This document shows positions 3,463 through 60,054 of a stretch of 60,081 nt of DNA, in pieces (position 1 is the first letter of the stretch; each line of letters opens with the position of its first letter). Position numbers and translations under genes: made by a program. The notes below the pieces were generated by a model, which saw nothing but the letters and a program-made list of their open reading frames with translations, was not told the DNA's origin and made no database searches. Origin of the DNA: Lentisphaerota bacterium (lineage in GTDB: Bacteria; Verrucomicrobiota; Lentisphaeria; Victivallales; Victivallaceae); the NCBI GenBank assembly GCA_015061495.1, contig SUWL01000007.1, positions 1 through 60,081 of the forward strand. Reading direction: 5' to 3'.

Positions 3463-6400
3463 TCACTCCGTAATGAAAAAGATGTGTTCAGTTGAAAAAT
3501 CATTGAGTTTGTTTTTGAGCTGCCGCAGATATTCAAAAATCTCCGGTGAAGCGATACCGCTTTGCTTGGTCAGCATGAAACTTATCAGATGCTTGCGATT
3601 GTATGCAAGATAAAGATAATCATGGTCAAAAAAGATCGTTCCCGCCGAAATATTGAGCGGTTCCGGGCGGACGATGCGGAAGTTTTCCGGTACGCTGATC
3701 TCATAATCCATATTCATGTTCAGTTGTGAACGGTGAAAATAGGGGGTTTCCCGTTTTTTCGCCGGGATGGACAGTTCTGCATTCAACAGTTGGAATGCGG
3801 GCAGGGGCAGATAGACGAATTTGCCGCTGCGTCTGGCGAAATCCGGAATGTGAAGTTTCAGCATCATGGTATCCGAAGCAAAACCGCTTTCCAGAATTTC
3901 CGCCTGCGGAGCGATGCCGGAAGCGTACTTCTCAAAGAATTGCCGTTCGGTCGCCGGAGTAAATCCGGCAAATTGTTCCCGGAGCTTTTCCAGATGGGTA
4001 CCGTAAGGGGTGTATTTCAAAGTCACTTCGGCGGAAAGATCTTTCTTGAGCGTGACGGAGATATCGAGATCTTTGCCGTTTTTATCTCCGGAAACAAGTA
4101 CATCGAGTTTGCCGTTATCCAGACACATGTATTCCTGATGGTGCAGCGTTCCGGCAGGGGCATGCAGTCCGGAATCATTCAGGCAGACGATACCTTTGCC
4201 GGTATCGACCTTCAGGAGCAGGTCGGAACAGATGTTTTCCGGAAATTCCCTCAACTGATCCGCTCTCCGGCTGGAAAACGGCTCGCAGGTCACCGGGATG
4301 AACCGGTATCCGATACCCAGAGATTTCAGCATTGCCGCCATCAGTATGGCGCGGTCGGTGCTGTTGCCGCAGCCGTCACGCAATGTGGTTTGCGGCGCGG
4401 AAAAGTCCGACGGCAGCATATCGTTCAGCGGCAGATTCACCTTGCGGATGTGCCGGTAAACATACTTTTCCACGGCATCGGCGATCTCGGCAGGAGATTT
4501 TTTTCCGGCAGCGATCTTGCGGGCAACTCCGGCGATTTCCGGGGAGGCGGCATCGACCTGCTTTTGAGCGGCAGAGGTGTAATAGTTTGCCAGCTCTGCA
4601 AAATCGATCGAGGTGATTTTTACTCCGGGTACGAACACACTGGGATCCGGCTGATCCGGTTCATCGGGGAGCCTGGGCGATTTGCCAACGGTGTAACGGC
4701 GGATGATCCGCTTGCCGCCGAAGGTGATCGAATCCCGGATCTCCGGAGGGATATCGGAGATTTTCAACTTCATCTTTGCCGGGTGTTCGATGATCAATTC
4801 ACTTGCCAGAGCCGGGGTGTCACTGCGCGTGAGCAATCCGGTGCTGAAGCCAGGCATATTTTTCCGGAGGGCGGAAACGGTCAGTTCCACGGTGCTTCCG
4901 ACATCCATCCCGGGCAGGGTGATTACCGCCAGTTTCCGTTTCGCATAGCGGGGGACCGCAGAGATCTCCTCATCGTCCATATATTGGATGTCCTTTGTCG
5001 AAAGGGTGTGTTTTTGACCTTTGGAATCGGTGACGATGGCACTGATTTCCGGTTTTCCGCAGCTTTCCACGTACTCCAGCGGGATATTGGCGTAATACTT
5101 CATCCCGGCGTAGTTCAACACCCGGAAGTGCGATGTGACAGTATATTTCCAACTGTGCGGATCAATGATATCGTAATGGCGCACAACTTTGATGACTTCG
5201 GCTTTTTCGCCGTCGGTGGAGTATCCGGTGTTTTTTTCGGCAATGGGCATGGACAGGCGGTTGTTGCGGGCGGCGGCTGCGGCACTGCGGAACTTCGGAT
5301 AATCCTGCGGTGAAACCCGCATGGAATCCAGTGCCATGAAAAATTCTTCGGTAAGTTCATGGTTTTTGATGGAACTTTTGCTTTGCAGCCGGAGCAGTCC
5401 CTTTTCCTGCAAATCGATATCCGGCGGCAGTTCGTATTTGAATCCCGGGGCAAGCTGCATGACGATCTTTTCTCTGACTGCCCGGGGCATGACCCGCAGC
5501 GGGAACCGGCGTTTTTTCAGGGCGGTACAGGTGAACAGTGTGCGCATATTGCCCAGTATGATCCCGGCGCGTGGCAAGGTGAGTGCCTGCAGATCACGGT
5601 CGGAACGCCCGGAATCCGGAATTTTGAACTCCAGGGTCACGGCAAGCGGACAGCTCATATCCCGCACGTTTTCCGGACGGATGTTCACTTTGGTAAACTC
5701 TGCTCCCGGCATGATTTCCCGAACCAGAGAGGCAAAGAAATTTCTGATATCATCCGGATGCCATTCGGAAAATGCCGAACGGAACATGTTGTCGTAAATT
5801 CCGGAAAATTTTATTTCCATGCGGGCAGCGGCATTTTTTACGTTGGTATTTATTTCCAGCAGGTTGCTTTCCGCTTTGACCGGCGGTGCGGTACGGAGCG
5901 TATCTCCCTGCGGTTTGGCAACCAGATAGGAGTCGCCAGCCAGATAACCGGGGAACAATTCGGTGGTGGTTTCAAATGTCGGGTCCATCAGGATGTATCT
6001 GCCGGGGGCGGTTTCCACGGCAACGATGGCGTGATTGAAGTAGATGTTTGCTATTTCCGGATCTTTGGGTGTGCCGGACATGAAAAGCGTGGGGTAGGCT
6101 TTGAATCCCGCCAGTTTGAGCATGGCGACCAGCAATGCCGCTTTGTCCCGGCAGACACCGTGTTTCTGATCGAATGTCCGGTCAACATCGTGCGGTTCGT
6201 ACCCCGGCGCGCTCTCTTCATCAGTTACTCCGGTGTAGCGTATCTGCTGGGAAACGAATTGGAAAAGGGCGGTGATCTTTTCCATATCCGTCTTGTTTCC
6301 GGCGGTCAATACGGCGGTTTTCTGCTTCATTGCCTCATTGACCTTTGCCAGATGCGGTTCGCAAAGTTTATCGTACCAGCGGGAGATATTTTCCCATGAT

Positions 6401-23918: not shown

Positions 23919-24761
23919 ATGAAAATAGAACGGTCAGCCGCAGAAAAACGCAAACTTGACCGCTTCGGGCGTTGCGAAAATGCCCGGATATCCTACGTGG
24001 CAAGCGGCGTGCGCGGCGATGAAGTCGATCAGGCGCTGGCGGCGGTTTTTGCCGCAGCACCGGATTTATGGGAGGGAGTACCTAAAAATTCCGTGGAACT
24101 TGTCCGTTCACCGGGCGGCGGCATTCTGGAAGCGGTGGTGGATTATCAATATCCGGACCGCTCCGCTTCTTCGCACCGTCGGGATATCAAGTCCAATGGC
24201 GACCGGGAGTGGCTGGTGGAGATCTCCACCAAAATGGCGCACTGCAAATACGCTCACTCTCATATTTTCTCGCGCAAACTTGATGAGAATGCGCCGGATA
24301 TCGATCCGGGACTGCTGGTCGATTGGAACGGCAAGACCGGCAGTGCCAGTGTTTCCGGCACGATCCCGATACTGGAGTCTCTGGCGGAAATCACCTGTAT
24401 TGCCACTTTCCGCAGGGACAAGGTGGACAACCGTGCCTATCTGCGCAATGCCGTAAATCTGGTCGGTAAAGTGAATTCCGAAGCGTTCCACAACTGGCAC
24501 GCCGGAGAGGTGCTTTTTGGCGGATTGAAAAAGAGCGTCCTCTTTGAAGGAAAACACGGCGAAGACCTCTGCAATCTTTACTTCCGCTTTTTTATCCGTA
24601 CCGGCGGCAAACGGCAGATCGCCGGAATGGATATCGGCCATGTTGACGGCTGGGATCATCTCTGGCTGTTGCGTTCTCACGGAGCGGGCAGAGAACGCAT
24701 CCATTCGGTACATGTCAGCCGCCTTTATCCGCGCTCCTCTTTTGCCGTACTGGATATTTGA
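23919..24761 (+). CDS. Phage-like protein of unknown function (first gene of cassette)
   Basis: 280 residues, not recognised. The start is MKIERSAAEKRKLDRFGRCE at 23919 with AAGGAGA upstream; an earlier in-frame ATG lacks a site. It has a mixed beta-rich pattern, no signal peptide and no membrane span. GLVDWNGKTG-like and MDIGHVDGWDHLWLL segments recall virion structural proteins but match no family known to me. It opens an eight-gene plus-strand array ending at 31415. It lacks terminase, portal or capsid motifs. Function as a structural or baseplate-like component is inferred only from the neighbouring tail-fibre gene. Confidence 0.55.
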   Translation: MKIERSAAEKRKLDRFGRCENARISYVASGVRGDEVDQALAAVFAAAPDLWEGVPKNSVELVRSPGGGILEAVVDYQYPDRSASSHRRDIKSNGDREWLVEISTKMAHCKYAHSHIFSRKLDENAPDIDPGLLVDWNGKTGSASVSGTIPILESLAEITCIATFRRDKVDNRAYLRNAVNLVGKVNSEAFHNWHAGEVLFGGLKKSVLFEGKHGEDLCNLYFRFFIRTGGKRQIAGMDIGHVDGWDHLWLLRSHGAGRERIHSVHVSRLYPRSSFAVLDI

Positions 24762-24777
24762 GAAAGGGGCGCAAACG

Positions 24778-25650
24778 ATGTTTTTCAGCGATGTTTTTGA
24801 ATCTGAAGAGCGGGGGATCGAACCGGTATCCCGTTACAATGCGGTCAATATGCTTCTGCGGTCGGGGGTTCCGGCTGCAGTTGAGGCGATACCCCGCAAT
24901 TCCGCCATGGGAGTGGTGCAGTTTTTCAACCGTTCTGAAAAAACGATACCCCGTTTTTCGGCGGTTGCGCTGGCCGGGGTACATCCGGATGATCCGCTCG
25001 ACCCGGAAGAACGCGCCGATGGACAGGCGATATTCACCGGCGAAGCGGCTGTTGATGACTCTGTTCCGTGGGGGATCGCGATGGAACAGATCGCTCCGGA
25101 TACTTACGGAGAAGTCGCTGTTTCCGGGTGTGTACCGGCAATTTTTTACGGGACCGGCAAATTTGTGGTCCCCGGCAGTTCCGGTTTGACCGCTGGAAGC
25201 AGCGGCAGTGCCAGAGTGCTGCTTTATCCGGGGGTTACGGACAAACAGACAGCTGTTCCGGGATTGCTGCTGCTCGGAGCGGCAAGTCCGGCAAAGGATA
25301 ATGAGTATTTCGGAATATTCAAGCTCGGGGCACTGTCGGCACAGAGTTTGGAAATATTCAACTCCTATGATCCGGATTCGGAATATTGCGGCAGTACCGA
25401 TGTCCCCGGATTGAATAAGATCCCCCGGACGGTGATGACCTTTGAAGACGGCAGTTACAAGGAGATATTCCTGGCTTTTTTCTACGACTCTGACACGCGT
25501 ATTTACAGCTGCCGTTTTTGCACATCGCTGCCGGAAAATACCGTATTTTCCCAGTTGATCGGCACTTTTCAAAACGGATTTATCAATCAAATCTACCGGC
25601 AGTCATCCGATCGGCGTATGATATTCGGAGAGGAGTGGTACTTGCGATGA
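24778..25650 (+). CDS. Virion-like structural protein (decoration/tail accessory type)
   Basis: 290 residues. The middle part has the pattern seen in many phage accessory structural proteins: FFNRSEKTIPRFSAVALAGV, followed by a GIAMEQIAPDTYGEVAVSGC strand and a VPGSSGLTAGSSGSARVLL segment. That is, a 'variable-start, allowed-value, signed-off' beta repeat. No catalytic motif, signal peptide or TM. It follows the first cassette gene by 16 nt with AAAGGGG upstream, and its stop overlaps the next start (ATGA). Assignment as virion-like is by general resemblance, not a family match. Confidence 0.5.
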   Translation: MFFSDVFESEERGIEPVSRYNAVNMLLRSGVPAAVEAIPRNSAMGVVQFFNRSEKTIPRFSAVALAGVHPDDPLDPEERADGQAIFTGEAAVDDSVPWGIAMEQIAPDTYGEVAVSGCVPAIFYGTGKFVVPGSSGLTAGSSGSARVLLYPGVTDKQTAVPGLLLLGAASPAKDNEYFGIFKLGALSAQSLEIFNSYDPDSEYCGSTDVPGLNKIPRTVMTFEDGSYKEIFLAFFYDSDTRIYSCRFCTSLPENTVFSQLIGTFQNGFINQIYRQSSDRRMIFGEEWYLR

Positions 25651-26645
25651 AGTGGCTCGGAGAACGTCCCCGTTCCATCGTGGAAGCGTGGAACATTCTG
25701 TGCGAAGCGCTGAATGAACGCATGGAATTTTACGGATACAGCGGCGGATCGTACCGTTATTCTCCGATCCCGGCAGTGCCCTGCCGCCGTGCCGGCAGGA
25801 AAATCCGGGATATGATTCCGGAAATCCGGGCAATGATCTGCCGGATGGTGGGAATTTCTTATGACTGGACAGCTTCCGGCAGTTGGGTCAGTGATCCATG
25901 TTTCAGCGTGCCGGAAGACCCGGAAGATCCGTTATTTGCCGGGAGCGGGGTTGACGGATTGGCATTTTTCAGTACTCCGGAAACGCTTCCTGCCTGTCGG
26001 CACGTGTCAAGTGAGTTTATCAAAGCTGCCGCCGGGGTGTTGGATTTCGCAGTCCGTTATCCGGTGCCGATGTTGTGTGAAAAGCCGCCGAATGTCGCCG
26101 GATTCGGAGTTTCGGCATTGCTTGCCGCCGAATCTTTTGAAAATGGTTCTGTTCTCCGGGGAACCTCTCTGGACGATGGTGTGCTGGTACTGCCGGATGA
26201 TATGCGGCCGTTGGTGAATGTTTCCTGGAATATATTGGCTCGCTGGGATAAAGATGTCGGCAGGGAGCGGGCTTACAACCACCGGCTGGTTTATCATGGC
26301 GCGGGCCGAGAAATCGGCAACAATCGTGTTTCATACCGGTTGCCGTATCTTTATGGCAAATGCGGCATACGGGTGGATGCGCATGTCAAATGCCGGACAG
26401 TCCTCCCCGGGGAAGCGGAAAAAGTCATCGACCTTGACCGGCAGGAATTTACCATTGACTTCAGCACCGGGCTGGGGGATGACAAACTGGATTTTTCCCG
26501 GGCTTCTCCGGAAATTTCTGATGCATGGAATTGCCGCGAAGATGATCCGGCTGTCCGCAGAAGTGTACTGCTGTATATCGATCAGATGGAAGTAAAAATC
26601 GGGACGGATAATTTCGCCCCGCTGAAGTATAAGTTCATCTCCTGA
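25647..26645 (+). CDS. Phage-like protein of unknown function
   Basis: 332 residues starting MKWLGERPRSIVEAWNILCE, translationally coupled to the preceding gene by ATGA. A helical N terminus (about 70 residues, EIRAMICRMVGISYDW) precedes a beta-rich body with many Cys and Trp residues. No recognisable enzyme motif, signal or membrane span. Neighbourhood (virion-like gene before, collar/fibre genes after) suggests a structural role. A longer upstream frame beginning at 25518 overlaps the previous gene and lacks a ribosome-binding site. Confidence 0.5.
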   Translation: MKWLGERPRSIVEAWNILCEALNERMEFYGYSGGSYRYSPIPAVPCRRAGRKIRDMIPEIRAMICRMVGISYDWTASGSWVSDPCFSVPEDPEDPLFAGSGVDGLAFFSTPETLPACRHVSSEFIKAAAGVLDFAVRYPVPMLCEKPPNVAGFGVSALLAAESFENGSVLRGTSLDDGVLVLPDDMRPLVNVSWNILARWDKDVGRERAYNHRLVYHGAGREIGNNRVSYRLPYLYGKCGIRVDAHVKCRTVLPGEAEKVIDLDRQEFTIDFSTGLGDDKLDFSRASPEISDAWNCREDDPAVRRSVLLYIDQMEVKIGTDNFAPLKYKFIS

Positions 26646-26714
26646 ATTACCTGCAGGGAAAAGATGTTTTACACAAATGAATAATAACAATAACATTCAA
26701 GGAAACAGGAAAAT

Positions 26715-27404
26715 ATGCAAAAAATCCGATCAATTTTAAAAATCGGCAGTTCCGGAGCCGTTTTGTGTGACAGTTACGGTTCTGAATCCGGTATTTCTCT
26801 GGAATTGATGCTGGGCACCGGCGGCATTCTGGAGTTTGAATTGCGGACAGATACCGGCGGCGAGAGTGCTGTCCTGCCGGATCTGCCGTTGTCCGAAGTC
26901 GCTGCCGCCAACTACTATTTCGCCATGGATATCACTTGTGCCAACAGCGATGATCCGGCGCTGCTGATTTTCAATGGAGTTACTGTCGGTCAGGACAGCG
27001 GCGGTCATACGGTGGTATCGGTGCCGGTGATCAATAATTCTGCCGCCGGTATTGCTGCTGCTTTGGAACGGCGCACATCTGCGGAATTTTTTTGTGAGAT
27101 CGGCGGGTTTGATGCTGCCGGAACGGCACTTTTTGCCTGGCAGTTTCCGGTGACAGTCCGCAGTCGGGTCTATCTGGGCGGCGGAACTGAAACAGAGATC
27201 TCTGATCCGGCATTTTACACTGCTGTTCAGGTTGATGCGCTGATCGCGGCTTTGAAAAAACGGATAGATGATCTGCCGGCAGCGGCGGAAAATATTCCGA
27301 TTGCCGATGACGGGGAGAATTTTTCAGCGGAGAATGTGGAAGATGCCTTGCAGGAACTTTACACTCTGCTCAATGGGACAAAGCAAACTCTGGAGACTAT
27401 TTGA
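26715..27404 (+). CDS. Phage-like protein preceding the tail fibre
   Basis: 229 residues. Beta-rich N-terminal 160 residues (FELRTDTGGESAVLPDLPL; VPVINNSAAGIAAALER), then a helical C-terminal stretch VDALIAALKKRIDDLPAAAE and a last helix VEDALQELYTLLNGTKQTLE. That tail resembles the short trimer-forming segments that end phage fibre or adaptor proteins. It lies 3 nt before the large fibre gene, so it may be its adaptor or chaperone (inference). A 69-nt gap precedes it; AAGGAAACAGG gives the ribosome-binding site. Confidence 0.5.
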   Translation: MQKIRSILKIGSSGAVLCDSYGSESGISLELMLGTGGILEFELRTDTGGESAVLPDLPLSEVAAANYYFAMDITCANSDDPALLIFNGVTVGQDSGGHTVVSVPVINNSAAGIAAALERRTSAEFFCEIGGFDAAGTALFAWQFPVTVRSRVYLGGGTETEISDPAFYTAVQVDALIAALKKRIDDLPAAAENIPIADDGENFSAENVEDALQELYTLLNGTKQTLETI

Positions 27405-27407
27405 TAT

Positions 27408-30400
27408 ATGAGTATTTCAAGCGAAATCAAACGTATCGTTGATGCCAAAAAAGCTTTGAGTGCGGCGATCAATGCCAAAGGCGGCAATCTGACCGGAACG
27501 CAGCTGCTCGATGATTATGCCGCCGCAGTGACCGCTTTGCCGACCGGAGAATCTGCCGACCTCTCTTTTATCACCGCTTCGGCAGAGGATATCTTGTCCG
27601 GAAAAGTCGGTGCCGATGCCGACGGAAATCCGGTTTACGGCACTATCCAAACCGTTACCGCAACTTTGACCGATAACAAAGTGACAGTTCCGAAAGGTCA
27701 TATTGCAAACGAACAGACTTTGACCGTGGCGGAGATGGCTGAACCCTCCGTTTCTGCCAATGTGGTTACGATCGGCAAAGGCTACAACAAGGCGCAAAAG
27801 ACCGTTACCATCCCGGAAGCCGGAGAGTTGACCGTTTCTGAAAACATTGTCACTGTCCCGGTCGGTTATGTGAAATCGGTACGGACTGTTGAAATTCCGG
27901 CTGTTTCTGCCACTCTTTCCGGCAACAAAGTGACTATTCCGGCAGGGTATAACGGCGGTCAGACCTTGACGGTTGCGGAAGCTAAAGCACCGGAGGTTGA
28001 CGGAAATGTTATCACCATTTACCCCGGATATGTGGCGCAGGAGCAGACCGTTGAGGTTGAAATCCCTGCAAGCGGCACTTCCATGGAGTTCTACAAGTGC
28101 GCCGCCGTTCACGGTCCGGAGGAAGTTGTATGTTATGAGGTTACGGGTTGTCCTGACTCTGAATACAACGGAAGATATCTTCCCACCGAATTTGAAACGT
28201 CAGGCTATGAACAGACATACATCGTTTACAAGCACGAAACGAATAATGTCTATTACTTTTACAGCGATGGTTACGGAGAATTCGGCCTGGGTAACGACTA
28301 TGAAGATGGTTCTTTTACGTATCGAGGCTCTGTCGATGCATCGTGGTATGATAATGATTGGATGACTGTTGAAGGCATGTCTATGACCGAAAGCACCACT
28401 CTTATAAATACCGATGTCCCGAAAACGTGGGATGGCTGCAAGGCGGTTTTGAGCGATGGAGTTTATACGTTTGAGGAAACTGTAACAACCGGACTGAAAT
28501 GGTCGGACATCAGACCTGAAATACCGCACGTTTATTCAGCCGATGTCAAAATAAAAGCGGATTGGCTGGATGATGGCGACAAGTTTTCTAAAGGGCTGAT
28601 ATTCCATGCTCCGCTTACAGATAGACTTGACTATGCCGAAACCGGGCAAATGTTGGAGAATCACGGCGTTCAACTTACCACTTTGGATGGGGTGAAATGT
28701 GCAAGGTTTGATGGAAGTTCATATATCTCCATTCCAAGAAAATTTGCGGCAAGACTGTCAACCGGGTCATCGACTCCATTAACGATAATTGTAAATTTTC
28801 GGGGTGACACAAATTCCAGCGGAAACGTACTCCAAACAAGATCAGGCTCAACGGTCAGTGAAATCTATCCTATCCCAGGCAAAAGTAACTGGTTTTTTCA
28901 ACTGCGTTCCCGCAGTATAGGCGACTACACTGCAACCAGTTTTTACGAGCCTAACCGATGGTGGACGATTGTCATGACTACACACCTTGATAAAAAACAA
29001 TCCGGGGTCGTGATCGGTAAGACACTATATGCGACAAGTTCAATATCGTCGTATGATTCGTTTTACAATGCAATGTACATCGGGACGAGTGAGGGGGATC
29101 CCAGTCGCGCGTTTGCCGGGTACATCAATGAAGTCCGCATTTACGATCGCGCTTTTACTTATGAAGAAGCGTGCGAATATGTGGATCGCTATGGATTTAC
29201 AAAGCCAGAAGCGGTTTTTTACGCACCTTTGTCGGAATCGACAACTGCCGCTGAAACCGGACAGGCGTTGACCGTTTCCGGCAATGTGACTTACGGAACT
29301 GTGGACGGGGTGCCTTGCGCCACTTTTGACGGTAACAGTGACATCACTTTTCCGGATGCCGGAATGCCAACTGGAACTGCCGGCAGAACTTTGAGCTGCT
29401 GGTGCAAAATCAATTCCATTGAAACCAATTCCAACCCGGCTCTTTTCGGGTACGGCGCAAGGGAAAACGGGAAATTCTGCGGTCTTTTCATCGAATCGGA
29501 TTTGAAAGTGGTGTTTTCCGGCTACAATGAACAAAATCACCTCTATTCACCTGCCGGTGCGGTTTCGGTCGGCAAATGGTATCATGTGGCGGCGGTCAAA
29601 AACGGTGCTTCGGAAAAACTCTATATCAACGGTGTCAAAGTTGCGGAAGGAACAACCGGTAAAAATACTGAACTCGCGCTTGGAACTATTGCTTATACGA
29701 CAGATACCACTGTTCATAAATTCAACGGTTCACTTGCTGCCTGCCGCATTTACGACGGCGCATTGAGTGATTCCGAAATCGCTGAACTGGCAGATGAGTT
29801 TGTACCAACTGGAATAAATTATCCGGTATTCTACGCACCGTTGAGCGAAGCAAGTTCAACCGCAGAGACAGGGCAGGCACTTACCACCTCGGGTAACGTA
29901 ACTTACGAGACCGTTGATGGTATTCCGTGTGCTTATTTCGATGGCAATGCAACAATCTATATGTCCGATAATGATGAAAATATCTTACGTCTGCCGAGAG
30001 GTAACACGCCGGGGACAATTTCTCTCTGGTTCAAAAGCACTGCCGCACAATACGCTTCGATAATGAACTACTGCGGTGAACAGCGAACCGCCAGAGGTAT
30101 ATGGCTTAACACCAACGGTAATATCACGCTTGACGACGGCGGCGGCAATTTAAGCGATACCGTCGGTTTCTGCGATGATGTGAACCACTTCAATGGTAAC
30201 TGGTGCCATGCCCTTATCACCTATAATGGCACAACACTTAAACTGTATATTGACGGAATTGAAAAATCCTCTGTGGACTATGAGTTGAATACCGGAGCGA
30301 TACGTTTCGGCATAGGTGCATGGGCTTGGGGTCACATTACACATTACTACACCGGATATGTTGCCGCTGTCAGACTGTATGACCGGGTTGTAACTGCCGG

Positions 30401-30437
30401 GGAAATTCAACAGCTTGCCGGGGAGTTTGATGTATGA
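27408..30437 (+). CDS. Tail-fibre-like protein with repeats and three LamG domains
   Basis: 1009 residues. The N terminus MSISSEIKRIVDAKKALSAA followed by INAKG and LDDYAAAV is a recurrent start of phage fibre proteins. Residues about 75-220 hold four or so imperfect 35-residue repeats (NxVTIPAGYxxxQTxTV). Residues about 226-385 form a linker module with KTWDGCKAVLSDGVYTFEE. Three LamG/concanavalin-like modules follow (about 395-600, 605-800, 805-1009), each beginning with a FYAPL or FHAPL strand. The last two start almost identically at protein level but differ at many synonymous sites. GC drops visibly between 28.1 and 29.2 kb. Likely a carbohydrate- or surface-binding adhesin; no signal peptide. 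Confidence 0.75.
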   Translation: MSISSEIKRIVDAKKALSAAINAKGGNLTGTQLLDDYAAAVTALPTGESADLSFITASAEDILSGKVGADADGNPVYGTIQTVTATLTDNKVTVPKGHIANEQTLTVAEMAEPSVSANVVTIGKGYNKAQKTVTIPEAGELTVSENIVTVPVGYVKSVRTVEIPAVSATLSGNKVTIPAGYNGGQTLTVAEAKAPEVDGNVITIYPGYVAQEQTVEVEIPASGTSMEFYKCAAVHGPEEVVCYEVTGCPDSEYNGRYLPTEFETSGYEQTYIVYKHETNNVYYFYSDGYGEFGLGNDYEDGSFTYRGSVDASWYDNDWMTVEGMSMTESTTLINTDVPKTWDGCKAVLSDGVYTFEETVTTGLKWSDIRPEIPHVYSADVKIKADWLDDGDKFSKGLIFHAPLTDRLDYAETGQMLENHGVQLTTLDGVKCARFDGSSYISIPRKFAARLSTGSSTPLTIIVNFRGDTNSSGNVLQTRSGSTVSEIYPIPGKSNWFFQLRSRSIGDYTATSFYEPNRWWTIVMTTHLDKKQSGVVIGKTLYATSSISSYDSFYNAMYIGTSEGDPSRAFAGYINEVRIYDRAFTYEEACEYVDRYGFTKPEAVFYAPLSESTTAAETGQALTVSGNVTYGTVDGVPCATFDGNSDITFPDAGMPTGTAGRTLSCWCKINSIETNSNPALFGYGARENGKFCGLFIESDLKVVFSGYNEQNHLYSPAGAVSVGKWYHVAAVKNGASEKLYINGVKVAEGTTGKNTELALGTIAYTTDTTVHKFNGSLAACRIYDGALSDSEIAELADEFVPTGINYPVFYAPLSEASSTAETGQALTTSGNVTYETVDGIPCAYFDGNATIYMSDNDENILRLPRGNTPGTISLWFKSTAAQYASIMNYCGEQRTARGIWLNTNGNITLDDGGGNLSDTVGFCDDVNHFNGNWCHALITYNGTTLKLYIDGIEKSSVDYELNTGAIRFGIGAWAWGHITHYYTGYVAAVRLYDRVVTAGEIQQLAGEFDV

Positions 30438-30874
30438 CAAAGATTGAAGAACATTTTTACACGATGCAAAGAATTGATGCTTTGCGGAAGACTGTGGAGT
30501 TTTACGGTTTGGAAGTGCCGCTTGAGTTTTGGAACTTGAGTCTGCCGAAGTTGCAAAAGTATTGCAACGGATGCGGTGCAGAGAATTGGAGCGTAATCAA
30601 ACGCCAAGCCCTGACTGCGGCACTTTCCCGGTACGAAGCGGCGTTTTTCGTCCATGACATCTGCTATGAACTCATGACCGACCGCGCCGAAGCCGACAAG
30701 ATGCTGCTGCGTAACATGCGTGCCATTTTCCGCCGGGATTTCGGGCTGTTCTGGTGGCTTACCAAACGCGGCTGGGCTGAAAGAATCGGCATCATCCCGG
30801 TGGTCTATGGACTTGTGGCATGGGGCGGCGAGGATGCTTACCAAGCCGCCCGGAAAGATGGAGACGAAACCTGA
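30434..30874 (+). CDS. Phage protein with PLA2-like HD motif
   Basis: 146 residues. YCNGCGAENW, then FFVHDICYEL and DRAEADKMLLRNM, reproduce the pattern (GCG...HDxxY...ADxxFLxNM) of small prophage proteins related to phospholipase A2-like folds. In PLA2 the His-Asp pair does catalysis; calcium-binding residues are not evident here, so activity is uncertain. The last 40 residues are hydrophobic and may associate with membrane (IIPVVYGLVAWGG). Start overlaps the fibre stop (ATGA); stop overlaps the holin-like start (TGATG). Confidence 0.55.
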   Translation: MTKIEEHFYTMQRIDALRKTVEFYGLEVPLEFWNLSLPKLQKYCNGCGAENWSVIKRQALTAALSRYEAAFFVHDICYELMTDRAEADKMLLRNMRAIFRRDFGLFWWLTKRGWAERIGIIPVVYGLVAWGGEDAYQAARKDGDET

Positions 30875-31080
30875 TGACCACCTACGAATGGCTCGGCTTG
30901 ATCGTGGTACTGATCGGCGGCTTCTGGAAGTTGAGCAACAAATTGACCAAGATCGAAGTGGCTCTTTCCGGCAAAGTCGGTTTTGACGATTGCGCCGAAA
31001 AACAGGGGAAATGTCCCTGTCATAAACGTGTTGAAGAGATGGAAAAGTTAATGGAACAGCTCCATCCGCACCAAAAATAG
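30874..31080 (+). CDS. Small one-TM, holin-like protein
   Basis: 68 residues: MTTYEWLGLIVVLIGGFWKL forms one membrane span, followed by a charged helix with CAEKQGKCPCHKR and VEEMEKLMEQLH. Size, single TM and position after the fibre genes resemble class III-type holins or phage membrane accessory proteins. Three Cys residues could bind metal or form disulfides. No endolysin is adjacent, so a lysis role is only suggested by position. Confidence 0.55.
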   Translation: MTTYEWLGLIVVLIGGFWKLSNKLTKIEVALSGKVGFDDCAEKQGKCPCHKRVEEMEKLMEQLHPHQK

Positions 31081-31094
31081 AAAGGAATAAAAAC

Positions 31095-31415
31095 ATGAAA
31101 GAAATTATCGCACTTATCGCTTTTGCCGCCGTACTGCTCCTGACCGGATGCGGGCATAATGTCCTGACCTTTGCTTCCGGGAAGTATCTCAATTTCGGCG
31201 TTGATCCAAGCACCAATAAAATGGGTGTCCAGTATGTCAACGGCGAACAGATCACCGTGGTGGAAAAGGATAATGCCAAACTTACCGTCGAAATGCGTGA
31301 TACCCTTGATTCAGACGGCAAAAAGACCGCCAAAGTTTCCAAAATCACCTACGAAATCGGCGAACAGATCACCGGCAGTGATGTGGAGGCAATGAAAGTT
31401 TCTGCGGGCAAATGA
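31095..31415 (+). CDS. Small lipoprotein at the end of the phage-like cassette
   Basis: 106 residues: MKEIIALIAFAAVLLLTGCG is a signal peptide with lipobox LLTGC. The mature part (about 87 residues) is polar with KLTVEMRDTLDSDGKKTAKV and YEIGEQITGSDVEAM. AAGGAATAAAAAC precedes the ATG. In phages a small lipoprotein beside a TM protein can be an o-spanin (Rz1), but this one is longer and not proline-rich, so the role is open. Its stop is only one base from the converging sel1 gene. Confidence 0.65.
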   Translation: MKEIIALIAFAAVLLLTGCGHNVLTFASGKYLNFGVDPSTNKMGVQYVNGEQITVVEKDNAKLTVEMRDTLDSDGKKTAKVSKITYEIGEQITGSDVEAMKVSAGK

Positions 31416-31416
31416 T

Positions 31417-32667
31417 TCAGCGCAGGTATTCTGCGGCTTCCCGGTCACCGGCTCTGGCGGCGGTACGGATAAATTCCATCCCGGCTGCGTAGTCCCGGAC
31501 GACTCCGCGCCCTTCCAGCAGTGCTTTGCCGGCTTCCCGCATCGCTCCGGGATGTCCGGCAAGTGCTGCTTTATGGAAGTAACTGAATGCGGCACTGTAA
31601 TTTTTCGGTGTCATCTGTCCATCCCTGAAGCAGCATCCCAGTAAAAAAGCCGCCTGATTGCTCCCTTTTTCGGCGGCAAGTTGATAAAATTCCAGCGCTT
31701 TGGCATGGTTTTTTTCTGTACCGATGCCGTCGGCATAACAATCCCCCAGTTTTTTCAGAGCCGGGGGATAATTTTTTTCTCCGGCGGATTTCAGCAATTC
31801 AAATGCCCCGACCGGGTCGTGGGGCATATATATCCCCATTTGTTTAAGTCCGGCGATATCGGTCATTGCCCGGGATGAGCCGAGTTTCCGGGCCTCATCG
31901 TAGAGTTTCAATGCCTGCTTGCGGTCTGCGGGCATCCCGAAGCCGTTGAACATCATTTCCGCCAGCTGTGCGATGGCTTCCGGATGTTTTTTTTCTGCAG
32001 CTTTGCGGAGTATTGCCGCTCCAGCCGGAGGATCGGGGATGAATCCACCGAGTCCGGAACGCAGACATGCGGCATAGATCACCAGAGCTTCCGGATCCGG
32101 ATCGGCGGTGTTTGAACAGTATTGTTCCAGCATTTTACGCAATTCCGCTCCGTGGCTGGCGGCATCGGCAAACAGATAACGGGCGAGTGGGAGCAGGGCA
32201 TCGGTTTCGCCGGATTTAACACATTTGCGCAGGATATCCAATGCCCGTTCGGGATCAGACTTTACTGCCGGGAGAACCAATTCATAATAACTGCCCTCTT
32301 CCACACCGCTGAAAAGCATTTCGGCATAACGTACTGCGGCTTTGCTGATTCCCTGATTCATGGCAAGACCGTAAAAGTGAAATGCCGCTGCCGGATTGGC
32401 TTGTGTGCCGATGCCATTGTGCAGAAAAAGTGCCAGATTGTATTGGGCATGAGGTGAATTTGCCGCTGCCGCTTTGCGGAACCAGTAAAGTGACAACGGA
32501 AGATTTTTCCGGCGGTTTTTCCCGTAAAAATATTCGGTTGCCAATTGCAGTTGACTGGCAATGTCGCCGCTGCGTGACCGGATCAGCAGTTCATCCGCTG
32601 CCGACAGAGAAAAGGCGGCAAAAAATGCCGCCGCAATGATCAGAATAAGCTGGAGTTTGTACCGCAT
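31417..32667 (-). CDS. Exported Sel1-repeat protein
   Basis: 416 residues with a signal peptide (LILIIAAAFFAAFSLSAADE) and about nine Sel1-like TPR repeats, e.g. PLSLYWFRKAAAANSPHAQY, ALKLYDEARKLGSSRAMTDI, ALEFYQLAAEKGSNQAAFLL. Sel1 repeats are scaffolds for protein contacts in the periplasm. The start overlaps the lpxD stop by one base (TAATG), so it is co-transcribed with guaB-ompH-lpxD. Partner unknown. Confidence 0.88.
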   Translation of the reverse strand: MRYKLQLILIIAAAFFAAFSLSAADELLIRSRSGDIASQLQLATEYFYGKNRRKNLPLSLYWFRKAAAANSPHAQYNLALFLHNGIGTQANPAAAFHFYGLAMNQGISKAAVRYAEMLFSGVEEGSYYELVLPAVKSDPERALDILRKCVKSGETDALLPLARYLFADAASHGAELRKMLEQYCSNTADPDPEALVIYAACLRSGLGGFIPDPPAGAAILRKAAEKKHPEAIAQLAEMMFNGFGMPADRKQALKLYDEARKLGSSRAMTDIAGLKQMGIYMPHDPVGAFELLKSAGEKNYPPALKKLGDCYADGIGTEKNHAKALEFYQLAAEKGSNQAAFLLGCCFRDGQMTPKNYSAAFSYFHKAALAGHPGAMREAGKALLEGRGVVRDYAAGMEFIRTAARAGDREAAEYLR

Positions 32668-50717: not shown

Positions 50718-51698
50718 TTACCGGGTCTGAATGCCGCTTGTGCCGACGTAATCATCGCTGGGATAATAAAACACTCCCTTGCCGCTGTTGGGTACTTCTC
50801 CGAGGATACCGGTAAGCATTTCATCCAATTCAAAAGCGGATTTCGGTTCCACGTGTCCATCACCCCAGGCGATATTGGCTTTGCCGCTGTGACGGTGAAC
50901 CATCTGGGCTTTGCCGCTGGTAATATATACCACATACTGCTGCTTGTTTCCATCCTGTCTGGAGTCGGTAAACATGTAGAGTTGGGAGTGAGAGAGTTTT
51001 CTGGGAAGATGAAGGTATTTGCAGCTGTCGTAAACACCAGTTTGATCCGCTGTCGGAGTACGGGTGGTAAATTTCATATGCCGTCCGACATGGCCGCGGA
51101 AAACTCCGTAACTGCGGTAAGCCCAGTCGTTGCTGTCATTCCAGTTCGGCTGTTTGCCATCGGGGCAGACCACGGAGTATTTATCCGGGAAATATTGTTC
51201 GGCGATGGAGTTGTTGTACTGCTGTCCCCAGCTGCGGCAGTTGGAACTTTTGCCGTGAGTCGGGAAGTTGGTGGTGTTGTAGATAAAAAATCCGTCATTG
51301 TCATCCACATACATCAATGCGGCGGAAATAACCTGCTTCAAATTGCTTTTGCATGAAGCATCCAGACCGCTTTTGCGCGCTTTGTTGAGGGCGGGCAGTA
51401 AAATTGCCGCCAGAATGGCGATGATCGCGATAACGACCAGCAGCTCGATCAGAGTGAATGCGCTCTTGGGAAGAGGGGAAAAACTTCTTTTCACGGGAAA
51501 AGAGGTTTTTCCCCTCTCCCCAAACCCCACTGCCTTTTTCAAGAAAAGCGGAATTCTTTGTTGAGTTGCAACCGCACTTTTTTGTGCAAAAAAATGCCAT
51601 GATGAGATAACAGTGCTTACGAGCAGTTCGATCAGGGTGAAGCCCATGGGCTTCATCTGCCTTGTGGCAGATGAATGTTGTCTTACAAAATGTTTCAT
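50718..51698 (-). CDS. Prepilin-type (DUF1559-like) protein with duplicated leader
   Basis: 326 residues; AGGAGG lies 9 nt before the ATG. Two prepilin motifs occur: GFTLIELLV at 19-27 and [20 protein letters not shown] from 80. Between them lie 61 in-frame codons carrying a palindromic repeat. The mature part has the H-X9-DG motif ([14 protein letters not shown]) typical of Lentisphaerota/Planctomycete DUF1559-like pseudopilins. Only the second motif has the full hydrophobic helix, but its -1 residue is Ala, not Gly. It follows the regulator by 21 nt and precedes the GH42-like gene by 30 nt. Confidence 0.8.
51472..51531 (-). repeat. Palindromic repeat inside a prepilin leader (copy A)
   Basis: Left arm 51472-51491 and right arm 51498-51517 pair over 20 bp with one G-U wobble and a 6-nt loop. 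Flanking sequence 51495-51531 is identical over 37 nt to 60007-60043. The element is read in frame in the minus-strand prepilin gene, encoding a GERGKTSFP-like peptide. Confidence 0.8.
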
Positions 51699-59097: not shown

Positions 59098-60054
59098 TTA
59101 CAGAGAAGAGGGGTAAAGGTCTACGTCAGAGTGGCTGTGGGTTTTAACCGTGTTGTCGAGCAGATACCAGCCGCGGAACATGAGTTCGTACAACTTTTCC
59201 GGACTGGCAGTTTCAGCATGACCGTCAAAGAATGATACGTTGCAGGCGTTGTTGTGCCGGATAAACGGCAGGGGATTGGAACCGCCGAAACGCAATACCG
59301 CATAGGTGTCTTTGGCAATGCCGTCTTTCAACGCGGCACCATCCATAAAGATGGTCATTTTACTGGCAGGGATCCGGTCATCGTGGACCCCGTGTCTGCC
59401 GTAAGTTTTTTCATAGGTCGGCTGTTTCTTGCGGCGCATGAAATTCATATTCAGTCCGTCATTGCCCCGGTGGATGGCATAGGAGTCGTACATGCGATGG
59501 TTGTTGACATCGGCTTCGCCGTATTTGAATCTTCCGGAGGGACAGAACATGTATTTGTCATGTTTTCCCATCATGCCGGTGTTGACGAACATCTCCGTCC
59601 AGGTGATGTCGCTGCTGTATTTGATCTGCCACGGTACTCCGCTTCCGTCGTAGGCATCAGCGTACATGATATTGATATTGTACAGCTGTTTGACATTGCT
59701 GATACAACTGGCACTTCTGCCCCGTTCCCGGGCGGAATTGAGCGCCGGCAGCAGAATCGCCGCCAATATCGCTATGATCGCAATGACTACCAGCAATTCT
59801 ATTAAAGTGAAATGGGAGTGTGCGGGGGACAAGGAAAACTTTTTTTCACGAGAAAAAAAGTTTTCCCTTTCCCCCGCGCCCCCTTTCTCTTTCAAAAAAA
59901 GCGGACTTCTTTGTGATGGTATATCCGCGCCCCAGCGAAGCGACTCGTCACGGTGTAGTGAAACGAAGACGGAAGGGCGAGTTTTTTCGCAACCCGCCGA
60001 GCGGGCGGGAAAAGAGGTTTTTCCCCTCTCCCCAAACCCCACTTCCCTTTTCAA
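59098..60054 (-). CDS. Prepilin-type (DUF1559-like) protein, 5' end uncertain
   Basis: From [20 protein letters not shown] (codon at 59811) the protein has the pseudopilin helix and a H-X9-DG motif ([16 protein letters not shown]). Upstream, about 80 in-frame codons encode two repeat-derived peptides ([12 protein letters not shown] and [10 protein letters not shown]). The TTG at 60054 has no ribosome-binding site, and the frame stays open to the window edge, so the true start may lie outside. By analogy with the 50718 gene an additional FTLIELL leader is expected beyond the edge. -1 residue before the known motif is His. Confidence 0.72.
59822..59877 (-). repeat. Palindromic repeat in prepilin leader (copy B)
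   Basis: 25-nt arms (59822-59846 and 59853-59877) pair with two mismatches and a CACGAG loop, like the 20-bp palindrome of copy A but with different flanks. The following TTCAAAAAAAGCGGACTTC also resembles copy A. Confidence 0.75.
59949..59972 (+). repeat. Dispersed 24-nt repeat (copy 2)
   Basis: Matches 40530-40553 at 21 of 24 positions. Here it lies in frame within the prepilin upstream region, between palindromic copies B and C. Confidence 0.5.

Follow-up and report, generated by a model that had tools for sequence, protein, structure and literature searches.

A phage tail-tip module passed on mainly by vertical descent across a genus of Lentisphaeria

Are eight phage-like genes lying among housekeeping genes in the chromosome of a Lentisphaerota bacterium the residue of a decaying prophage, or part of a phage tail that the host lineage has kept? 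The window analyzed here is the entire 60,081-nt contig SUWL01000007.1 (GenBank assembly GCA_015061495.1), from a genome of 2.67 Mb in 123 contigs that is 89% complete. The block in question, genes g1–g8, occupies positions 23919–31415. A sequence-only reading had described eight densely packed plus-strand genes with overlaps and gaps of 3–69 nt, all of which was verified, and had wavered between a domesticated adhesin or display device and a reduced prophage tail module. Both proposals capture part of the history: the block originated as a reduced prophage tail module, and at present it is domesticated, being passed on mainly by vertical descent and kept by purifying selection. Adhesion or display may be its function, and the suggested new particle system is conceivable. 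It is an anciently domesticated tail-tip module and not a decaying prophage.

Phage relatives and the tail-tip origin

The tail-tip origin of the block rests on the position of its homologues in phages, where g1 follows the tape-measure gene and g2 and the fibre genes are collinear behind it. A scan with prophage g1 confirmed 31 viral loci. A tape-measure homologue precedes g1 in 30 of them, directly in 27 and with small opposite-strand predictions between the two in three (L120–L122); the remaining locus, L141, begins at g1. A second set comprised 22 loci (21 viral and one genome contig, several near-identical), of which 21 have a tape-measure-family match directly upstream of g1; in L170 an unmatched gene of 504 aa takes that place. 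The next gene after g1 in the related phages is usually, but not always, g2, followed by fibre genes and, in some, by a phospholipase A2 (PLA2)-like gene. Uncultured siphovirus-like phages from IMG/VR (L115–L146 and L163–L183) carry, in the order seen in the block, homologues of g1, in most cases of g2, and of the fibre genes. They differ in having a tape measure and genes for a tube or head, which the chromosomal copies lack, and the two groups are separate in the g1 tree. The g1 protein of the window is 20–23% identical to the four prophage copies and, in local matches, 23–30% identical to viral copies. A viral scan with the window g1 as query gave no match; the phage relatives were found only with prophage copies or a 12-row alignment as query, and a tblastn search of 50,697 INPHARED phage records with prophage g1 was also negative.

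Within the genus, the siphovirus-like prophages G017:C7 and G004:C31 have the order terminase, portal, capsid, tube, tape measure, g1, g2, with a GpA-type terminase, a lambda-type portal, and a head-tail joining protein among the upstream genes. The g1-type genes of these prophages (L051/L089 in G017:C7 and L052/L090 in G004:C31) have no PHROG match, and that of G017 has no Pfam match either. The same genes inside a complete prophage of a relative had been named beforehand as evidence against a distinct host locus; they do occur in G004 and G017, only as separate, phage-clade second copies in addition to the inherited block. Behind the fibres of some prophages (G034, G158, G036) lies a PLA2-like or DUF1353 gene.

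Outside the genus, g1 was found in 29 of 163 genomes of the class. Among 20 such loci examined from 18 genomes, 13 have a tape-measure match directly before g1; the predicted g1 of L247 is a 47-aa fragment. At L248 the tape measure adjoins g2 and g1 was not predicted. Three loci carry a long unmatched gene before g1 (504, 880, and 906 aa), and the two of these that were read are tape-measure-like. Two further loci start with g1 or close to it. At L249 in G036, no tape measure precedes g1, and a second domestication was considered and rejected. This locus carries genes that we take, from their sequence rather than from a family search, to be integrase-like and portal-like, and it is read as a rearranged prophage. 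The same locus (G036:C1:1245000–1260000) contains two opposed, partly near-identical gene sets (fibre, 125-aa, 84-aa, and PLA2-like) beside the integrase-like gene, an arrangement that looks like an invertible tail-fibre switch.

By homology and by collinearity with the region that follows the tape measure, the block corresponds to a siphovirus distal tail module. Its origin at the tip of a siphovirus-like tail is well supported, with g1–g3 on the hub side, g4 and g5 as fibres, and the PLA2-like g6, the g7 protein with one transmembrane (TM) segment, and the lipoprotein g8 behind them. The window genome, at its 89% completeness, gave no match to the tape-measure family PF10145, the portal families PF04860 and PF05136, the terminase family PF20454, or the tube profile built for this phage lineage; these profiles define the search, with capsid and unrelated head or tube families outside it. 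Across the genus, PF10145 was detected in two and PF04860 in none of the 22 genomes tested, and among 34 genomes the lambda-type portal PF05136 was found in four, the tube profile in two, and the GpA-type terminase PF20454 in six. The tube and tape matches fall in exactly the two genomes whose prophages hold second g1 copies.

Inheritance and selection within the genus

The block is nearly universal in this Lentisphaeria genus. We found g1 in 31 of 34 genomes, each equivalent to a species and the window genome included, and g2 in the same 31, compared with 32 for yidC; the three genomes without g1 are 71–78% complete. Together with the recurrent gene order in relatives, this distribution places the block beyond chance. 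A PLA2-like or DUF1353 gene closes it in 25 of the 31 species, and in the other six the locus ends earlier at a contig edge. Identity of g1 to the window copy ranges from 25 to 57% across the chromosomal carriers. In the g1 tree, a branch with 100/100 support sets the 30 chromosomal copies apart, as one clade, from 45 copies of phages and prophages, which gives g1 a single origin on the chromosome. The tree was built without G030 (a fragment) and without phage g1 proteins below 240 aa in the first set and 230 aa in the second; phage rows identical to others were also removed.

The history of g1 largely follows that of yidC. The yidC tree comprises 31 species; G001, G019, and G024 are left out, and G013 is represented by a partial row. 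Over the 28 common species, 17 of 25 splits agree between the two trees, compared with a mean of 0.24 and a maximum of 3 in 1000 shuffles, and the Mantel correlation is 0.72, compared with 0.31 for the best of 2000 permutations. The block genes are under purifying selection. Ratios of nonsynonymous to synonymous divergence (dN/dS; NG86 method) in six close species pairs were 0.08–0.22 for g1, 0.17–0.48 for g2, 0.13–0.27 for g3 proper, 0.08–0.39 for g4, 0.22–0.48 for g5, and 0.10–0.38 for the PLA2-like and DUF1353 genes, these ratios being rough since dS exceeds 1 in many pairs. The fibre gene g5 is among the fastest-evolving genes of the block.

In six species (G010, G012, G013, G022, G024, and G027), g1 and the genes from g2 onward reside at separate loci. 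Here two metabolic genes follow g1 in place of g2, and in five of the six the cluster adjoining g1 includes what we take to be a cysteine-desulfurase-like gene; the G012 contig starts just before g1. A different contig carries the genes from g2 onward in their normal arrangement, and in G022 it ends inside the fibre region. These six species form one clade in both the g1 and g2 trees, and the retention of both halves after the split suggests that both are in use.

Several observations weigh against a simple history of one captured and faithfully inherited machine. The g2 tree, from which proteins shorter than 200 aa were excluded, has no clean chromosomal clade: the G017 prophage copy and G030 take no resolved position, and one split appears in 38% of bootstrap trees. 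One conflict between the g1 and yidC trees, involving G010 and G022, is strongly supported. Identical topology of the two trees was rejected by approximately unbiased (AU) tests (p = 3.3e-5; reciprocal test, 0.006), although three randomly relabelled trees in each comparison scored over 3000 log units worse; the rejection implies some transfer, conversion, or model error. The gene content also varies. G033 lacks g4 and g5, g7 and g8 are missing from several close relatives, and an in-frame TGA interrupts g2 in G009 alone (L030; this gene is among those excluded from the g2 tree), as a result of either decay or assembly error. Genes of the relatives come from our own codon-score caller, so their starts may be off. 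Finally, the rates of g1, g2, and g4 do not covary significantly beyond the level of housekeeping genes in 25 species, and g1 covaries with jag more than with g2 or g4; thus a single joint machine finds no support in the evolutionary rates. We conclude that inheritance was mainly vertical, with some exchange or model error.

Genes, borders, and chromosomal sites

The first gene, g1 (23919–24761, 280 aa), encodes a tail-tip protein whose homologues sit after the tape-measure gene in related phages, a position from which a hub or distal-tail role may be assigned. It is separated by a 16-nt gap from g2 (24778–25650), a second tail-tip gene, which overlaps g3 (25647–26645) by ATGA. The g3 product is a fast-evolving tip protein with an N-terminal AWN..EA..ER..FYG motif, and in other species its place is taken by a gene of comparable size. 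Searches of g1–g3 against Pfam, PHROGs, NCBIfam, and PADLOC gave no match. An AlphaFold model of g1 reached a predicted local distance difference test score (pLDDT) of 80.2 and a predicted template modelling score (pTM) of 0.57, and fold searches with it returned no trustworthy fold among the families listed. Profile searches of PDB sequences at E ≤ 1 gave no match for g1, eight for g4, and two for g6, none of them below 0.1 and all unrelated.

After a 69-nt gap follows g4 (26715–27404), a fibre- or baseplate-like protein that matches phrog_7154 (E = 8.5e-6), a phage family of unknown function. Its relatives have collagen-like repeats, one phage homologue matches tail-fibre families, and one relative contains a stretch that we take to be tail-collar-like. 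Next, beyond a 3-nt gap, is g5 (27408–30437), a 1009-aa fibre with three Laminin_G_3 stretches (LamG, a concanavalin A-like lectin domain; E = 2.8e-44), and the only gene of the block with strong Pfam matches. The overlapping (ATGA) g6 (30434–30874) is PLA2-like, with an NG.G loop and a His-Asp pair plus second Asp (H74, D75, and D88, the last counted by eye), and is a predicted phospholipase. In other species a DUF1353 protein substitutes for it. The two families are related according to hhalign (probability 94.9%, E = 4.6e-8), although the direct Pfam DUF1353 match of the window g6 falls under the cut-off (16.5 vs. 22.5 bits), and the second Asp is replaced by Asn in seven of 14 aligned g6-type proteins. 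PLA2 activity and a His/Asp dyad are reported for the DUF1353 protein TtaP (PMC11525133).

Overlapping g6 by TGATG, g7 (30874–31080) encodes a 68-aa protein with one N-terminal TM segment, which its size and position would make holin-like; the Pfam, PHROGs, and PADLOC searches took it one codon longer (start 30871). After a 14-nt gap comes g8 (31095–31415), a predicted 106-aa lipoprotein with the lipobox LLTGC. Both calls were made by eye and with a hydropathy script. Lipoprotein-like genes hold the place of g8 in the G017 and G034 prophages. The earlier calls of a LamG fibre, a PLA2-like HD motif, a one-TM protein, and a lipoprotein were all borne out.

A trace of the lost upstream region may persist before g1. 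Of 30 other species, 20 have a short open frame that stops immediately upstream of g1 (in G021, shortly inside it). Its product is helix-like and about 30 residues long, its final residues being an aromatic one and one more, and eight of the 20 products bear an N-terminal extension of up to about 270 residues. These genes lie at loci L021–L038, L043, and L046, for example at oriented positions 5826–5987 of L021. They were picked by eye among open frames, and 19 of the 20 entered a profile, with long products trimmed to the C-terminal part. Compared with 72 segments, this profile ranks the C-terminal end of the tape measure first (18.8), ahead of the next segment (13.1) and of the reversed tape measure (10.8). 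The short gene probably represents what is left of the tape-measure C-terminus. However, the absolute probability of the match is low (31–45% in local and 3% in global mode), and neither the window species nor nine others yielded the short gene, G030 having no upstream sequence.

On one side the block is bordered by rpmH, rnpA, yidD, yidC, and jag. On the other, as had been noted, it ends one base from its neighbour, the g8 stop at 31415 being followed by the end of a convergent Sel1-repeat-like gene at 31417. The jag and Sel1-type neighbours are backed by family matches, and the genes beyond the latter are presumably lpxD, an OmpH-like gene, and guaB, named mostly from their sequence. The claim of a conserved site beside rpmH applies to 12 of 34 species, where the block adjoins rpmH/rnpA/yidC; the Sel1-lpxD-ompH-guaB border is visible in nine of them (with one extra gene in G021), and the contig ends first in three. 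Other carriers hold the block at different sites, several of which are common to close relatives or subclades. Within 17001–38000, the GC content is 0.505 in the block vs. 0.531 in the flanks, so its composition is not strongly foreign. The window had no match to tRNA or Rfam families, a promoter and terminator scan gave as many sites as in shuffled sequence, and a repeat search for attachment-like ends yielded nothing convincing. Elsewhere in the window, two minus-strand proteins (50718–51647 and 59098–59895, the second with an unusual leader) carry FTLIELLV, presumably a pseudopilin-like motif. Named relatives are Lentisphaeria metagenome-assembled genomes, several of them with names that point to the ruminant gut (goat rumen; sheep and yak colon).

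Possible function and place among domesticated phage structures

The explanation that we favour, with moderate confidence, is a domesticated tubeless tail-tip module that was captured once, inherited mainly vertically, and provides a released fibre-bearing tip. Capture of the tip block at or near the base of the genus, after the loss of everything that preceded the tape-measure end, is well supported, as is its retention since then by purifying selection during mainly vertical inheritance. Its proteins may form a tail tip that lacks a tube and bears LamG fibres for receptor binding. Because g1–g6 have no apparent signal peptide on inspection by eye, the tip might exit by local opening of the membrane or by lysis of some cells, using the predicted phospholipase g6 and the holin-like g7. 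A precedent of a kind is provided by PblA and PblB of the Streptococcus mitis phage SM1 (PMC2920869), whose surface expression needs the permeabilising phage holin and lysin; these platelet-binding proteins are borne by a lysogenic phage of another kind of host and are not a genus-wide inherited block. Once outside, it could attach to surfaces, to glycans, or to cells nearby. As a functional reading we prefer, tentatively, that a tip bearing fibres and associated with a phospholipase is released as an adhesin or effector. A bolder version, possible but doubtful, holds that a miniature tape-measure remnant nucleates a tubeless, headless tip with lectin fibres and a phospholipase, released throughout the genus to bind or attack cells or rumen plant fibre; such a tip would form a new class among domesticated phage structures.

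Interference with phages is an unlikely alternative, in which divergent host-made tip, fibre, PLA2-like, and lipoprotein parts poison the assembly of related phages or exclude them. Phages with the same tail type are indeed present in the same hosts, as the G004 and G017 prophages demonstrate, and g8 has a very weak match to a Cor-exclusion family (phrog_1119, E = 0.025). However, co-assembly is doubtful at the low identity of the window g1 to prophage (20–23%) and viral (23–30%) copies, none of the eight block proteins matched PADLOC-DB models at E ≤ 0.01, and G004 and G017 hold both the block and a prophage. Comparably unlikely is a fibre-guided weapon whose tip brings g6 to the membranes of competitors and needs no tube. 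The PLA2-like or DUF1353 gene at the end of the block, where contig ends leave it visible, the relatedness of these two families, the activity reported for a DUF1353 protein (PMC11525133), and the fast evolution of g5 would all suit such a weapon; against it, no physical link between g6 and the tip is known, no immunity gene was identified, and half of the aligned g6-type proteins carry Asn for the second Asp.

Still less probable is a split gene transfer agent or tailocin, with the block as one locus and its head or tube genes elsewhere. Long vertical inheritance is also typical of gene transfer agents, and the incomplete window genome may lack genes. Vertical inheritance in a clade, a mark of such agents, is seen here, the AU tests differing in detail. 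Alphaproteobacterial gene transfer agents (PMC10883770) resemble the block in being phage-derived and long inherited vertically, but they are small-virus-like and package host DNA, while searches of the window genome with PF04860, PF05136, PF20454, and the tube profile gave no head, packaging, or tube gene of the related phages. The scarcity of tape, tube, portal, and terminase matches in the genus, these being the families that the search covered, makes a split agent of this phage lineage unlikely. Tailocins, or phage-tail-like bacteriocins, consist of tail parts without a head and keep the tube; searches of the window genome with PF10145 and the lineage tube profile detected neither of the tape-measure and tube genes that characterize them. 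A decaying prophage remnant or a hot spot of repeated prophage insertion is very improbable, since the phage origin, the sites differing between subclades, and the genes lost or broken in some species are outweighed by near-yidC universality, a single g1 clade, tree congruence, dN/dS well below 1, and the retention of both split halves.

The block thus stands among domesticated phage structures as a genus-wide, mainly vertically inherited tail-tip module, neither ordinary nor an artefact. Among the papers listed in the open literature on Lentisphaerota prophages and phage tails or on domesticated tail modules, as covered by titles and the beginnings of abstracts, with preprints outside, none describes it. 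To our knowledge, domesticated phage machines such as gene transfer agents, tailocins, and contractile injection systems all retain a tube or a head. The present block seems to be tip-only, yet it is nearly as universal in the genus as yidC. As with TtaP of the typhoid toxin islet (PMC11525133), a DUF1353 protein that resembles prophage proteins is used outside a phage; TtaP adjoins a toxin, whereas the DUF1353 protein or its PLA2-like relative in the block adjoins tail fibres, and the block adds a host-kept locus that pairs a PLA2-like or DUF1353 protein with such fibres. About 30 natural variants, including a split version and species without fibres or lipoprotein, offer a test bed for minimal tail-tip function. 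A nearly universal, inherited tip without the rest of the virus suggests reuse by the bacteria for a purpose of their own, and that the receptor-binding end of a tail may serve alone as a cellular device.

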